Shown: piece after piece, positions 58,594 to 63,955 of the stretch
Layout: each line of letters begins with the position of its first letter
Numbering within the stretch: the stretch's first letter is position 1
Assembly: GCA_035541455.1 (NCBI GenBank)
Contig: DATKNH010000131.1
Coordinates: 1 to 64,000, forward strand
Reading direction: 5' to 3'
DNA from: Syntrophorhabdales bacterium
Lineage (GTDB): Bacteria > Desulfobacterota > Syntrophorhabdia > Syntrophorhabdales > WCHB1-27
DNA: 64,000 nt
Program-made: the position numbers and the translations under genes
Notes under the pieces: model-generated
Told to the model about the DNA's origin: nothing
What the model saw: the letters and a program-made list of their open reading frames with translations, nothing else
Databases searched by the model: none

Positions 58594-58605
58594 GAGCCAC
58601 GTAAA

Positions 58606-58628
58606 AAGGGGGCCTAAGAGGCCCCCTT
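58606..58628. terminator. Bidirectional intrinsic terminator
   Basis: AAGGGGGCC (58606-58614) pairs with GGCCCCCTT (58620-58628) over a 5-nt loop, with an A-run before it and TTATCTT after. It separates priA (rightward) from the secreted-protein genes (leftward). Confidence 0.85.
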
Positions 58629-58646: not shown

Positions 58647-58976
58647 TTACTTCTTTGCCGGGGCCGGGGGAGACTCTTCCTTCTGTCCGCCCTTCTCAGC
58701 CTTCGGAGCCGGTCCTTTGTCAGCCTTCTTTGACTCGCCTGCTGCGGTGCTCTCTTCCTTCTGTCCGCCCTTCGGAGCCTTCGGAGCCTTTTTCATGTCG
58801 GCTTTCTTCTCCGCGGGTGACTGCGGGCCACTCTCTTCTTTCTGGCCCGATGCTGGCGCTTTCATAGTCTTCTCAGGAGCAGCCTTCTTCTCGGGCGCAG
58901 GCGCCTGCGCAAACACTACGGTCACGAACGCAACGCTGATCACTAACGTCAGTGCAATCAAAAATGCTCTCTTCAT
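58647..58976 (-). CDS. Small Lys/Ala/Pro-rich secreted protein
   Basis: 109 residues. Signal peptide MKRAFLIALTLVISVAFVTVVFAQ, then a mature part made almost wholly of Lys, Ala, Pro, Glu and Gly with three copies of GQKEES (about residues 44, 70 and 97). It is unlikely to fold and may coat a surface, bind a polyanion or act as a linker. It has AAGGAGGATAG before the ATG and lies 33 bp downstream of a related secreted protein gene, so both share one transcript under the sigma-54 promoter at 59514-59529. Confidence 0.65.
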   Translation of the reverse strand: MKRAFLIALTLVISVAFVTVVFAQAPAPEKKAAPEKTMKAPASGQKEESGPQSPAEKKADMKKAPKAPKGGQKEESTAAGESKKADKGPAPKAEKGGQKEESPPAPAKK

Positions 58977-59009: not shown

Positions 59010-59465
59010 TCACTTTTTTGCAGATGCAGGCTTTATGGGCTTCGCGCCCACTTGCATCTGCTTTTGCATCTCTTTTTCCGATCCTGCCTTGACAACGGAA
59101 GAAGCCATCATCGTACCATCCTTCTTCACGTACGTCACGGTAACCCTGTCCTCTTCCTTCACATCTCCCTTGAACTGAGCCTTACCCACGTCGAAAGTCA
59201 TTTCGTCTTTCTTGCCTTTTACGACTATGGTTTTCTGCGTGGTATCCACCTTCGTGACGTTGCCGGTGTATCGGTGCGTCTTGCCTTTGGGGGTTTTGCT
59301 CCCGGGGGCTTTTCTTTCAACGACAGGCTTATTTTCGGGCGCTGTCGCATGAGCCTTCTGGGTGGCTGCCGCTGCGGGCTTGCCTGTGGAGCTTTGAGCA
59401 AGAAGAGATGTCACGAACGCAGCGCTGATGATTGACATCAGAGCGATTAACAACGCCTTCTTCAG
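59010..59465 (-). CDS. Secreted Lys-rich protein with small beta-rich C-terminal domain (CTG start)
   Basis: 151 residues if the start is CTG at 59465, which gives [CTG]KKALLIALMSIISAAFVTSLLAQ, paralleling the signal peptide of the next gene (MKRAFLIALTL); a TTG at 59453 would cut the signal sequence. A Lys/Pro/Ala linker (25-60) precedes a domain with YTGNVTKVDTTQKTIVVKGKKDEMTFDVG and DRVTVTYVKKDG, a DUF5666-like small beta barrel. A GGAAAGGTGG site lies upstream. A -24/-12 promoter is at 59514-59529 and paired palindromes at 59602-59650. Role unknown; probably envelope or metal-stress related. Confidence 0.7.
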   Translation of the reverse strand: MKKALLIALMSIISAAFVTSLLAQSSTGKPAAAATQKAHATAPENKPVVERKAPGSKTPKGKTHRYTGNVTKVDTTQKTIVVKGKKDEMTFDVGKAQFKGDVKEEDRVTVTYVKKDGTMMASSVVKAGSEKEMQKQMQVGAKPIKPASAKK

Positions 59466-59513
59466 TTGGTATCACCACCTTTCCAAGTTATTTGCAAACC
59501 TGCTCCATCGAGG

Positions 59514-59529
59514 TGCATCTGCTATGCCA
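59514..59529 (-). promoter_or_regulatory. Sigma-54 (-24/-12) promoter candidate
   Basis: On the minus strand TGGCATAGCAGATGCA: TGGC at -24, ten bases between GG and GC, then ATGCA at -12. It fits the TGGCAC-N5-TTGCA consensus with two mismatches and faces the secreted-protein genes. Transcription would start near 59503. Confidence 0.6.
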
Positions 59530-59601
59530 GGAGAGGTGCATCGTATCACACGTGTAATATTCAATAGTTACGAGGAAGGAGCCTAGATCCACGTCTAATA
59601 T

Positions 59602-59617
59602 GTCGGATTTTTCCGAC
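59602..59617. promoter_or_regulatory. Enhancer palindrome 1 (GTCGGA-N4-TCCGAC)
   Basis: GTCGGA TTTT TCCGAC, a perfect 6-bp inverted repeat. It is centred about 106 bp upstream of the predicted sigma-54 start site, the usual distance for an NtrC-type enhancer. Confidence 0.6.
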
Positions 59618-59634
59618 TTTCGATGCGCTACCCA

Positions 59635-59650
59635 GTCGGAGATTTCCGAC
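59635..59650. promoter_or_regulatory. Enhancer palindrome 2 (GTCGGA-N4-TCCGAC)
   Basis: GTCGGA GATT TCCGAC, the same palindrome as at 59602 with a different spacer. The centres are 33 bp apart, close to three helical turns, so two regulator dimers could sit on one face of the DNA. A third half-site (TCCGAC) is at 59660-59665. Confidence 0.6.
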
Positions 59651-59671
59651 GAAGATTTGTCCGACGCTGCC

Positions 59672-61126
59672 TTACGCGTTGCCTTTTGCGTGAGACTGGC
59701 TGGTGCGGAGTTTGAAGTCGTAGAGACCCAATTCTTTAAGCTTCGCGATAGCCGTATAGAACGTGTCTTTGTTAATGGCGAGCCGCTCCACGATCTTCTT
59801 TGGTTCGATCATTGTCGGGTATGCGGGGTCAAGGGGGTCAAGGCTTGACAGGTAGAGATAGAGCCTGTATTCAGCAGCCGTAAGTCTTGAATCAATCAGA
59901 AACTCTATCTTGTGCCGGAGCGTCTGCTGGACAAGCTGCCTCTCTTGGCCATTTTTGATCTCTTCAGGTATATTTTCAACGCCTATGACATCACCTTCGC
60001 TCATCACGTATGCTCTTTCCGTAACCGATTCGAGTTGCCTGATGTTGCCGGGCCATGAATAGGCCATGAGAAGCTGCAGTGCGTCATTCGACACGTTTTT
60101 CTTTTTTTCATGTGACGCGTTCAGTTTCTTCAGGAAATGCTCGACGAGCACAGGGATATCGGTCATTTTTTCTCTCAAAGGTGGTATGGTGAAGGCGATA
60201 ACATTGAGTCGATAGTAGAGATCCTGTCGGAATCTGCCTGTCTTGATTTCCTCTTCCAGCTTCTTGTTTGTTGCAGCGATAAGCCTCACGTCCAGCTTGA
60301 TCGTCTCCTTTCCGGCGATCCGCCGTATCTCCTTCTCCTGGATGGTCCTCAGAACTTTTGCCTGCATGGGCAAGGTCAAATCACCGATCTCATCGAGCAG
60401 GAGGCTGCTGTGATTTGCCTGCTCGAACAGCCCGATATGCCTTGTAACGGCCCCGGTGAAAGCCCCCTTCTCGTACCCGAATAATTCGCTTTCCAGCAAG
60501 GTTTCCGGAATCGCCGCGCAATTGATGGCGAAAAACGGGTACTGTCTGCGCGGGCTGTTGTAGTGGATGCTTTTGGCAAAAAGCTCCTTTCCTGTGCCGC
60601 TTTCACCATAAATCAGAACGGTGGAATTTGTAGGGGCAACCCTTCTCACAATTCGGAAAAGTTCATGCATGCTCCCGTGATCGCCGACGATATTATCAAG
60701 CTGAAACTTGTCGACAAGCTGGTCCTTGAGCCTGATGTTGTCTTTGAGCAGGCGCACCTGGTCAATCGCATTCTGTATGACGAGGAGGAGCTGGTCCTTT
60801 TCAAGAGGTTTCTCAAGGTAATGAAAAGCTCCCAGCCTTGTGGCCTCTATGGCAGAAGGGATCGAGCCAAAAGCTGTGACGATGATTACGTGGCAAGGCT
60901 GATTCTGAGACTTTACCTCCTTGAGGATTTCCGTTCCTTCGATGTCTGGCAGCCGCAGATCAGTCAGGACAACATCGAAATTGCCATTTTTCAGGATCTC
61001 GATAGCTTTTGCCCCGGTACCGACATCCTCAACGTAGTAGCCCTCCTTCACCAGGATAGTCTTGATGATCTCTCGTTGATTCTTGTCGTCTTCAACAACA
61101 AGAACTGTGTTTGCATCATGTTTCAT
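59672..61126 (-). CDS. Sigma-54-dependent response regulator (NtrC family) with atypical C-terminus
   Basis: 484 residues. The receiver domain (about 1-120) has Asp in VVLTDLRLPD near 56. The AAA+ domain has the Walker A GESGTGKELFAKSIHYNS near 172, the sigma-54 loop GAFTGA near 223 and LLLDEIGDL near 246. After about residue 395 there is no Fis-type helix-turn-helix; instead AAEYRLYLYL, PKKIVERLAINKDTFYTAIAKLKELGLY looks like a winged helix. It acts with the kinase whose gene overlaps it by 11 bp and probably activates the promoter at 59514. Confidence 0.92.
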   Translation of the reverse strand: MKHDANTVLVVEDDKNQREIIKTILVKEGYYVEDVGTGAKAIEILKNGNFDVVLTDLRLPDIEGTEILKEVKSQNQPCHVIIVTAFGSIPSAIEATRLGAFHYLEKPLEKDQLLLVIQNAIDQVRLLKDNIRLKDQLVDKFQLDNIVGDHGSMHELFRIVRRVAPTNSTVLIYGESGTGKELFAKSIHYNSPRRQYPFFAINCAAIPETLLESELFGYEKGAFTGAVTRHIGLFEQANHSSLLLDEIGDLTLPMQAKVLRTIQEKEIRRIAGKETIKLDVRLIAATNKKLEEEIKTGRFRQDLYYRLNVIAFTIPPLREKMTDIPVLVEHFLKKLNASHEKKKNVSNDALQLLMAYSWPGNIRQLESVTERAYVMSEGDVIGVENIPEEIKNGQERQLVQQTLRHKIEFLIDSRLTAAEYRLYLYLSSLDPLDPAYPTMIEPKKIVERLAINKDTFYTAIAKLKELGLYDFKLRTSQSHAKGNA

Positions 61127-62612
61127 GGAAAGGCACCCTTATTGTCGTCACGGTCTTTTGTCCTGAAGAGCTGTCCATGGAAATGGTGCCTCCGTGCTCT
61201 TCGACCAGCCTCTTGGTGATTGTGAGTCCAAGACCGATACCATATTTCTTTGTAGAATAGTAAGGTTCAAAGATTTTTCCGACCTCGTCCTGGGCCACAC
61301 CTTTTCCGTCGTCCGTCACAGAAATGTAGGAGAACCCGTGATCCCGGCCGCATTCGACGAGAATCGTTCCCCTATCTTCTATGGCCTGTATCGAATTGAG
61401 AAGCAAATTGATCACGCAGATTCTCATATATTCGGGATCGCAGTATATCTGCCCGCCGTCTTTGCAGACAGTGCGAACGTCGATGCCATCCCTTACCTTG
61501 TCTTTCACCATTGAGAGAGCATCGCTCACAAGGGCGCCCGGCGTTACCCAGGTTCTATTCAGAACAATGGGCTTCCCTACAAAAAGAAAATTGTTGATCA
61601 GCTCGTTGACCCTGTAAATCTCCTTTTTCAAGTTGTCCAGAAGGGCGGTGATATCTTCTCTGCCAGTGACGTTTTCTTCGAGGATGCGCTCTTTTATATG
61701 GCCGATGGAAAGAGAAAGAAAATTGAGAGGATTTCGCACTTCGTGCGCAATGCCCGATGCGAGTTGACCTATCATGGAAAGCTGCTCTGTCTTTTTCAGC
61801 TTCTCTTCCAGCTCTTTTCTTTCGCTCAGCTTGTCCACCATCTCGTTAAAGCTCTTGACCATAACCCCGATTTCATCCCTGCGGCTGGTTTCGCGTATCC
61901 TGACGAGCTGACCATCTGCTATCTTTTTGGCTGCATTGGCAATCTTCTTGATAGGCTCCGTGTACTTTTCCGCAAAGATCAGGCAGATGATGATCCCGAT
62001 GCTGAATGCGAAAATCGTGCTGAGGACTCTTTTCAAGTGATTCCTTCTCTGCAGGTATTTATAGTCATCAAGGACCATGCTCACATGGATGTAGCCCATT
62101 TTCTGCCCCTTGATTGAAACAGGCATGATAACGCTATAGAGGCGCTGTCCTTCTTTCTTGCCGGTTTCTTCACCCAGCCGGGCCGTGATCATCAGATCTT
62201 TTTTTCTGCCTGTTTTATCGGGCGACGCCGTTGATTTCTTGGGAGGCTGCTGCACGGTGCCTATCTTCCGCGGGTCTGAGCTGGCTATAACTTCTGAGGC
62301 ATCACTCAGAATTGAGATTTCACGGATCCCTTTCTTATTTAACGTGTCAACATATGTTTTTAACCTCTGTGTGCTGTCTCCCCGGTACGTGAGTTCCTCA
62401 ACGCTAATCTGGATCGCCTTGGTGATATCGTCAATGTTGTCAGTTACCTTTTCCAGGATAAGTTCCTCACTCTTCGTATAGATAATGGTGAGGGAACCGA
62501 TAGACGTGAGGAGAAGAAAGAGAAGGATCAGCAGGAGCTGAGTCCTCAACGAAAGGCTGCGAAAGAAACCTTTCAGGCGTTTACCGAATTGCCGAATGTT
62601 CTCTGCAAACAT
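61116..62612 (-). CDS. Membrane sensor histidine kinase
   Basis: 498 residues. Two membrane segments (about 21-45 and 199-225) surround a periplasmic region with DASEVIASSDPRKIGT, as in Cache-type sensors. A HAMP domain follows, then the phospho-acceptor His in SGIAHEVRNPLNFL near 290 and the ATPase motifs NLLLNSIQA, DDGKGVAQDEVGKIFEPYYSTKKYGIGLGL near 445-474. It phosphorylates the downstream regulator. Its start overlaps gltX by 40 bp, so the tRNA synthetase and signal pair share a transcript. The signal is unknown. Confidence 0.93.
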   Translation of the reverse strand: MFAENIRQFGKRLKGFFRSLSLRTQLLLILLFLLLTSIGSLTIIYTKSEELILEKVTDNIDDITKAIQISVEELTYRGDSTQRLKTYVDTLNKKGIREISILSDASEVIASSDPRKIGTVQQPPKKSTASPDKTGRKKDLMITARLGEETGKKEGQRLYSVIMPVSIKGQKMGYIHVSMVLDDYKYLQRRNHLKRVLSTIFAFSIGIIICLIFAEKYTEPIKKIANAAKKIADGQLVRIRETSRRDEIGVMVKSFNEMVDKLSERKELEEKLKKTEQLSMIGQLASGIAHEVRNPLNFLSLSIGHIKERILEENVTGREDITALLDNLKKEIYRVNELINNFLFVGKPIVLNRTWVTPGALVSDALSMVKDKVRDGIDVRTVCKDGGQIYCDPEYMRICVINLLLNSIQAIEDRGTILVECGRDHGFSYISVTDDGKGVAQDEVGKIFEPYYSTKKYGIGLGLTITKRLVEEHGGTISMDSSSGQKTVTTIRVPFHET

Positions 62613-63955
62613 GCTACTCTCTCCAGCACAAGATGCTGCGGTATGAGTCTGAAAACTTCTTTTAGAGGTGGGCCACTCTTTCTTCCCGTGATGGCAATGC
62701 GCAAGAGCATCATTACATCTCTCTTGGCGAGGTGAGTTTCTTTCTCGACGATCTCGTAAATTTCCTCGAAGGACTTTTTGTGATCCCGCGTGAGTGTCTC
62801 TTCGAGAAGCCGCACCGGATTGCCTAAGCCTTTAATCCGAGTGAGGTACTCGAGTGCGTCGGGGTGAATCCCCGCGGTATCAAAAATGTCCAGCATCTCC
62901 CTAAGCTGTACCAGTGTCTTTCCGTTTTCGCGGAGTGCTGCCACCCTCTCAGCCCATTCCCTGCTTAATCCCAGTTCCGAGAGAATCCGCTCGAGCGGCA
63001 GGGTACGCATGTAGGCGCCATTCAGCCACAGAAGCTTGTCAAGGTCGAAGAAGGAATCTGAACCTGAAAAGGAATCGATAGAAAAGGTGCTCGCCAGCTG
63101 GTTCATCCCAAGAAGCTCATCCTGCATGCTGCGGCCTATGATGGCAAGGTAATTGACCAGCGCCTCCGCAAAAATGCCCATATTCTTGAAATCGATAATA
63201 CTGGTGGCGCCGTGGCGTTTGCTCAATGGCTTCCTGTCCGGACCCGCGAGCAGTCCGTGATGGGCATAGCGAGGGGGTTGTTTGCCGAACATCGAGAAGA
63301 GCATGATCTGCTTTGGCGTATTGGAAACATGGTCTGACCCGCGTATAACATCAGTGATTCCCATCACCATATCATCCACGGCCGCCGCAAAGTTGTAGGA
63401 AGGTAGCCCATCCTGTCTGACGAGTATGAAATCATCCACGTGGTCGCGGGGGAACGAGATCTCACCGTGCATCCCGTCACGGAAACGTATCTCTTCTTCC
63501 AGGGCCCTCACCCTGATTACAAACGGCTTGCCTTCCTGCTCCATAGCCCGGCGAGCCGCTTCAGTAAGCGACCTGCATTTCCCGCTATACCTCGGGGCTT
63601 GGTTCCTGTGAAGCGCACTGCTGCGCTCAGCCTCTATTTCTTCTTTGGTACAGAAGCATTTGTAGGCATTTCCGCGGGAGAGAAGAGCATCGGCATGTTC
63701 ACGGTAGATCGGGGTGCGCTCCGACTGCAGATATGGACCTTCATCCCAGGAAAGACCGAGCCATCGCAAATCATCGAGGATAGACTGCACAAACGCTTCT
63801 TCGGATCTGGCGACGTCGGTGTCTTCTATACGCAAGAGAAATGTGCCGTTGTTATGGCGGGCCAGGAGATAGTTGAGAACGGCCGTACGCGCGTTTCCCA
63901 CGTGGAGATTGCCGGTAGGACTGGGAGCGAACCTTACGCGAATCATTGGTATCAT
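62573..63955 (-). CDS. gltX: Glutamyl-tRNA synthetase
   Basis: 460 residues (a second ATG three codons later is equally possible). HIGH motif in RFAPSPTGNLHVGNARTAVLNYLL (about 7-30) and KMSKS motif in KPLSKRHGATSI near 240. IEDTDVARSEE near 42 and the RDGMHGEISFPRDHVDDFILVRQDGLPSYNFA block are also typical. It charges tRNA-Glu. It is the first gene of the run gltX-kinase-regulator. The upstream ribosome binding site is weak. Confidence 0.96.
   Translation of the reverse strand: MIPMIRVRFAPSPTGNLHVGNARTAVLNYLLARHNNGTFLLRIEDTDVARSEEAFVQSILDDLRWLGLSWDEGPYLQSERTPIYREHADALLSRGNAYKCFCTKEEIEAERSSALHRNQAPRYSGKCRSLTEAARRAMEQEGKPFVIRVRALEEEIRFRDGMHGEISFPRDHVDDFILVRQDGLPSYNFAAAVDDMVMGITDVIRGSDHVSNTPKQIMLFSMFGKQPPRYAHHGLLAGPDRKPLSKRHGATSIIDFKNMGIFAEALVNYLAIIGRSMQDELLGMNQLASTFSIDSFSGSDSFFDLDKLLWLNGAYMRTLPLERILSELGLSREWAERVAALRENGKTLVQLREMLDIFDTAGIHPDALEYLTRIKGLGNPVRLLEETLTRDHKKSFEEIYEIVEKETHLAKRDVMMLLRIAITGRKSGPPLKEVFRLIPQHLVLERVACLQRTFGNSVNA

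Follow-up and report, generated by a model that had tools for sequence, protein, structure and literature searches.

A stretch of 64,000 nucleotides (the window) from a Syntrophorhabdales bacterium (assembly GCA_035541455.1, contig DATKNH010000131.1, positions 1 to 64,000) was analysed for a putative sigma-54-dependent two-component circuit with exported products. Read on the minus strand, the locus contains in order gltX, a histidine kinase gene, an NtrC-type response regulator gene, two palindromes, a −24/−12 element, the genes sec1 and sec2 for exported proteins, and a terminator-like hairpin (Table 1). The whole analysis was a comparison of sequences, and the genomes used were mostly fragmented metagenome assemblies. 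The end of gltX and the start of the kinase gene overlap by 40 bp. An earlier note, made on this DNA from its letters alone, had described overlapping kinase and regulator genes, identical-arm palindromes 33 bp apart and a −24/−12 element with exact GG-N10-GC spacing. All three were found again: the two genes share 11 bp, the palindromes have exact 6-bp arms with a start-to-start distance of 33 bp, and the spacing is that of TGGCATAGCAGATGCA, from which the sec1 transcript would be expected to start near 59503.

Table 1. Features of the circuit and its surroundings in the window (strand: −, minus; a dot, no strand assigned).
Feature	Position	Strand	Basis
gltX	62573..63955	−	Open reading frame; conserved circuit neighbour by synteny across the order
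Sensor histidine kinase (HAMP, HisKA, HATPase_c)	61116..62612	−	Pfam
NtrC-type response regulator (receiver, sigma-54 AAA+ with GAFTGA, non-Fis C-terminus)	59672..61126	−	Pfam, sequence
MarR/winged-helix-like C-terminal domain of the regulator, residues 405–478	59693..59914	−	Sub-threshold profiles, alignment, model
Lone third half-site TCCGAC	59660..59665	.	Seen in sequence
Distal operator GTCGGA-N4-TCCGAC	59635..59650	.	Sequence; pair conserved in relatives
Proximal operator GTCGGA-N4-TCCGAC	59602..59617	.	Sequence; pair conserved in relatives
Predicted sigma-54 promoter TGGCATAGCAGATGCA	59514..59529	−	Sequence; conserved in relatives
sec1, exported basic protein with OB-like barrel	59010..59465	−	Probable CTG start
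sec2, exported Lys/Ala/Pro/Glu-rich protein, same signal peptide family, without barrel	58647..58976	−	
Terminator-like hairpin GGGGGCC-TAAGA-GGCCCCC, then T run	58602..58626	−	Seen in sequence

The regulator carries a receiver domain (PF00072, 3.6e-28) and a sigma-54 AAA+ domain with the GAFTGA motif (PF00158, 3.4e-68), as expected of a group 1 bacterial enhancer-binding protein (bEBP). A Pfam search of its C-terminus for the Fis-type HTH_8 domain, a usual although not universal bEBP feature, gave no match; that this end is not of the Fis type was missing from the earlier note. The best C-terminal profiles across 22 orthologues were MarR_2, HTH_36 and HTH_Crp_2, and an AlphaFold2 model of a 115-residue fragment showed confident helix-turn-helix (HTH) helices (block means >85 at residues 41–100). 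Since the three profiles all scored below threshold and the confident helices were not accompanied by a clear wing, the domain is described as MarR/winged-helix-like. In a single-sequence search, which distant relatives could escape, it was confined to the order among 297 genomes of the phylum. A sequence search of the PDB with this domain and with the sec1 barrel returned nothing significant, and in the sensor region of the kinase no Pfam family scored above its cut-off.

Exact matches to GTCGGA-N4-TCCGAC (operator A) occur only twice in the 64-kb window, both upstream of TGGCATAGCAGATGCA. Perfect 6-4-6 palindromes of any sequence number 25 in the window and so are not rare alone, whereas two of them within a 142-bp stretch were obtained in 0.1% of first-order Markov shuffles. 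In an alignment of 15 genomes, 10 of the 12 arm positions of the proximal operator are invariant, and most positions between the two operators are low in information. The spacing of the pair is 32–33 bp at the main locus (31–33 bp counting all loci), and the distance from the proximal operator to GGCA is 80–81 bp at most main loci, 89 bp in the genus of the window and more in G003. At seven loci (L135, L149, L151, L154, L157, L159 and L160) the distal operator extends over the 3′ end of the regulator gene, whose final residues (SEISD or SELSD) it encodes, so that the same bases are coding sequence and enhancer at once; the regulator gene of the window has its stop codon earlier than these relatives.

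The regulator is present in 39 of the 41 genomes of the order, a group of uncultured anaerobes, and sigma-54 is likewise encoded in 39 of them, the genome of the window included. The order gltX-kinase-regulator-sec1, facing priA-murI-trpS, is mostly kept across the order with both of the regulator classes described below. When the operator was combined with GGCA-N7-TGC at a distance of 40–100 bp, the pattern matched 35 times in the 41 genomes (overlapping tandem sites being counted twice, and a few matches being false positives without a suitable open reading frame) against 2 matches for the reversed pattern. In the 285 genomes of the phylum outside the order the figures were 5 and 5, which is the background level. 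The motifs were derived from the very loci tested, and for this reason the reversed pattern and the genomes outside the order are the controls that matter. The earlier note had made its proposal depend on the palindromes being conserved beside regulator homologues, and such they are: the operator pair, the −24/−12 element and a homologous exported protein recur both next to the regulator and in trans. This recurrence, together with the background level outside the order and the presence of sigma-54, supports the further suggestion of that note that the regulator activates the secreted genes.

A second operon was found in the genome of the window (C46:32179); its two operators stand 31 bp from each other, one carrying a single mismatch, and the proximal one lies about 122 bp before GGCA. 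This operon (L001:1501-1972) comprises TGGCATAGCTGATGCA and a gene for an 84-residue exported Lys/Pro/Ala protein, and is divergent from an ammonium-transporter-like gene, so named by reading its sequence. In G002, G020, G030 and G033 the regulator has no adjacent site, and site, promoter and secreted gene are found in trans. A search of the window's genome allowing a single mismatch gave nine palindromic places, four of which are the two regulon pairs; the other five are probably due to chance. A third homologue in this genome (C129) was rejected as a regulon member, as neither an operator nor a −24/−12 element is present within 320 bp.

In 17 other genomes of the order the regulator orthologue ends in a Fis-type domain (classed with a sequence motif, and in G004 by visual inspection), and its receiver and AAA+ domains are 70–76% identical to those of the window regulator. 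Two C-termini of this class were sampled, and both pass HTH_8. The Fis class goes with the operator TTCGT-N6-ACGAA (operator B); from its proximal copy to GGCA the distance is about 81 bp, and a promoter and an exported protein of the kind seen in the window lie downstream. Ignoring kinship, operator A was found in 19 of 22 non-Fis and 0 of 17 Fis genomes (Fisher test, 2.6e-8), and operator B in 0 of 22 and 11 of 17, respectively (7.4e-6, kinship again ignored); the trans site of G002, found later, would raise operator A to 20 of the 22. Syntenic orthologues from sister genera, with another domain and another operator, thus make at least one exchange of the DNA-binding domain in this order well supported. 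In another family of the phylum, a regulator gene whose product passes HTH_8 is followed immediately by a sigma-54 element and a secreted homologue. G012 (L174), which bears the genus code of the Fis-type G005, has operators of the GTCGGA type and, at the edge of a contig, an SDISD* tail; the regulator there could not be read.

A further operator occurs in G039, in which the recognition-helix region reads ITKQTF, as against INRDTF or INKDTF, and the operator is GTCTAA-N4-TTAGAC. This is a single case; a search of the G039 genome for the same operator recovered only the known site, and the shift there accordingly rests on one locus.

Built on just the receiver and AAA+ domains, a tree needed four changes between Fis and non-Fis labels, and its best topology interleaves the classes. 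Nevertheless, a tree with all non-Fis rows together, that is a single split, was not rejected by the approximately unbiased (AU) test (p 0.35). Clean proof of several exchanges was therefore not reached; one exchange is well supported and several are possible. The same AU value means that each class could be one lineage, and the classes might then be ancient paralogues, sorted by differential loss or by replacement through transfer, with no exchange inside one orthologous gene. We consider this unlikely, since both classes occupy the same place between gltX-kinase and priA-murI-trpS, the identity of 70–76% across classes compares with 49% to the next-best match in the window's own genome, none of the relatives carries a second copy at E 1e-130, and in the best tree G009 (Fis) stands next to G039 (non-Fis) with a support of 94/90.

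Several points weigh against the domain exchange with matched operators. The new C-terminal domain falls under the Pfam cut-offs, and its AlphaFold2 model lacks a clear wing and gives weak fold matches. Kinship among the genomes inflates the association of operator and domain; G007 and G039 have the non-Fis domain without the exact operator, and six Fis genomes have no exact operator B before a promoter. In addition, the well-supported branches of the tree force just one domain change.

The palindromes might also bind another factor, such as a repressor or a nucleoid protein, with the adjoining regulator controlling other genes. About 19 sigma-54 activator-like loci in the window's genome leave room for this, but the operator sequence shifts with the DNA-binding domain of the regulator in syntenic orthologues, and the sites lie at enhancer distance from −24/−12 elements both beside the regulator and elsewhere, which makes such a factor improbable. 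A role as RNA hairpins, for example in a terminator or attenuator ending the regulator gene, was rejected as highly improbable: although each palindrome could fold into a hairpin (6-bp stem, 4-base loop) and in many genomes lies at or over the 3′ end of the regulator gene, no T run follows, the arms are invariant rather than covarying, copies without a preceding regulator gene stand ahead of unlinked promoters, and a constant spacing of 31–33 bp would serve nothing in a terminator.

The reading that we hold with considerable, though not full, confidence is a ZraPSR-like two-component sigma-54 circuit whose activator has undergone one or more exchanges of its DNA-binding domain, its enhancers being rewritten where they stood while promoter and output were kept. 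For the fuller account we have a more modest preference: within one order Fis-type and MarR/winged-helix-like domains would have been exchanged, probably repeatedly, with the enhancers rewritten across the regulon at fixed phasing, promoter and output, and with a further shift in G039. No exchange of DNA-binding domains with matched operators was found reported in the open-licence literature.

The earlier note had also described two small Lys-rich secreted proteins, and this part stands; for sec1, a start at TTG 59453 is less likely than one at CTG 59465. Reading from the latter gives the family signal peptide LKKALLIALMSIISAAFVTSLLAQ after the ribosome-binding site AAGGTGGTGAT, and a relative of the same genus has ATG at this position, for which reasons CTG 59465 is very probably the start. 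The CTG (59463–59465) would be either a rare start codon or an assembly base error. The sec1 protein combines a signal peptide with a disordered basic region and an OB-like barrel (predicted, with a confidence score, pLDDT, of ~90); the barrel is missing from sec2 and from some members of the family. The mature exported proteins have an isoelectric point of ~9.6–10 and 19–30% Lys. In sec2, three GQKEES repeats stand in a low-complexity Lys/Ala/Pro/Glu background.

CusF and SilF were the closest fold matches of the sec1 barrel, and cold-shock and RPA folds were matched too. CusF binds its metal through His36, Trp44, Met47 and Met49; of these only a Met, that of EMT, aligns with sec1 (alignment by eye). 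With 14 of 27 bits for Pfam CusF_Ec, under the cut-off, and the ligand set apparently incomplete, the identification of sec1 as a CusF was rejected. CusF and SilF are periplasmic metal proteins that share with sec1 a small exported OB-fold barrel; sec1 differs in its long Lys-rich tails. Secreted homologues were found throughout the phylum, many without a sigma-54 promoter of this type. Longer secreted paralogues at L196-L199, L201 and L202 have an EF-hand-like C-terminus (DxNxDGxxxxxE) and TTGACA-like boxes upstream, and lack the −24/−12 element. In another family of the phylum (L190, L193-L195) the gene preceding the secreted homologue encodes a small Lys-rich, lipoprotein-like peptide, and the sigma-54 promoter is absent. 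No description of the exported Lys-rich family was found in the open-licence literature.

Among known systems, ZraPSR of E. coli likewise has a kinase and an NtrC-type sigma-54 regulator in control of a small periplasmic protein encoded next to them, and a narrow regulon and a link to envelope stress were counted as further likenesses, the signal here being a presumed one (PMC8249747). ZraP, however, is a zinc-binding periplasmic chaperone-like protein whose gene is divergent from zraSR (PMC8249747), whereas the window has downstream genes for Lys-rich products with an OB-like barrel, and a non-Fis regulator C-terminus. Membership of ZraPSR itself was rejected, with 364 of 760 bits for NCBIfam ZraR and 163 of 479 bits for ZraS; a ZraP family search on the window products gave no match, and the fold differs. 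CorSR of Myxococcus xanthus also pairs a kinase with a sigma-54 response regulator controlling exported proteins, but CorR carries an HTH_8 domain of the Fis type and acts on copper-tolerance genes (PMC3707914), none of which adjoin the window circuit. The DNA-binding domains of bEBPs have been reviewed as either HTH or absent (PMC7175178). DVU0151 of Desulfovibrio vulgaris, a sigma-54 activator with a predicted winged helix in place of Fis, is a precedent for a non-Fis activator; unlike a response regulator it is a one-component protein, it has GAFSEA and targets transport genes, and an exchange among orthologues is not described for it (PMC4641369).

In the proposed mechanism, the membrane kinase would sense a signal, probably an extracytoplasmic one, and presumably phosphorylate the AAA+ activator encoded by the overlapping gene. 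Activator dimers would occupy the two palindromic enhancers, three helical turns apart and usually 80–89 bp upstream of the −24/−12 element, the MarR/winged-helix-like domain presumably reading GTCGGA-N4-TCCGAC, and the assembled ring would remodel sigma-54 RNA polymerase. Enhancer-bound dimers, ring assembly and remodelling of this polymerase are the established bEBP mechanism, transferred here. As output, small basic proteins rich in Lys, Ala and Pro would be exported, many of them with an OB-like barrel. What is said here of operator recognition, of dependence on sigma-54, of the signal and of the role of the exported proteins is inferred from sequence; for that role, binding of anionic envelope polymers or a part as periplasmic accessory proteins may be suggested, which is the weakest step.

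Regulators and their sites are usually thought to evolve stepwise, because a wholesale change would break all targets at once. At the loci compared here, orthologues differ in the whole fold that binds DNA, and the operators at unchanged positions differ to match, in a regulon of few promoters, and the re-addressing of an activator without loss of its targets thus becomes directly testable, as a natural experiment in circuit rewiring. The comparison also indicates that the DNA-binding domain of an NtrC-type response regulator need not be Fis, and it offers two matched enhancer/activator pairs for sigma-54 promoters.

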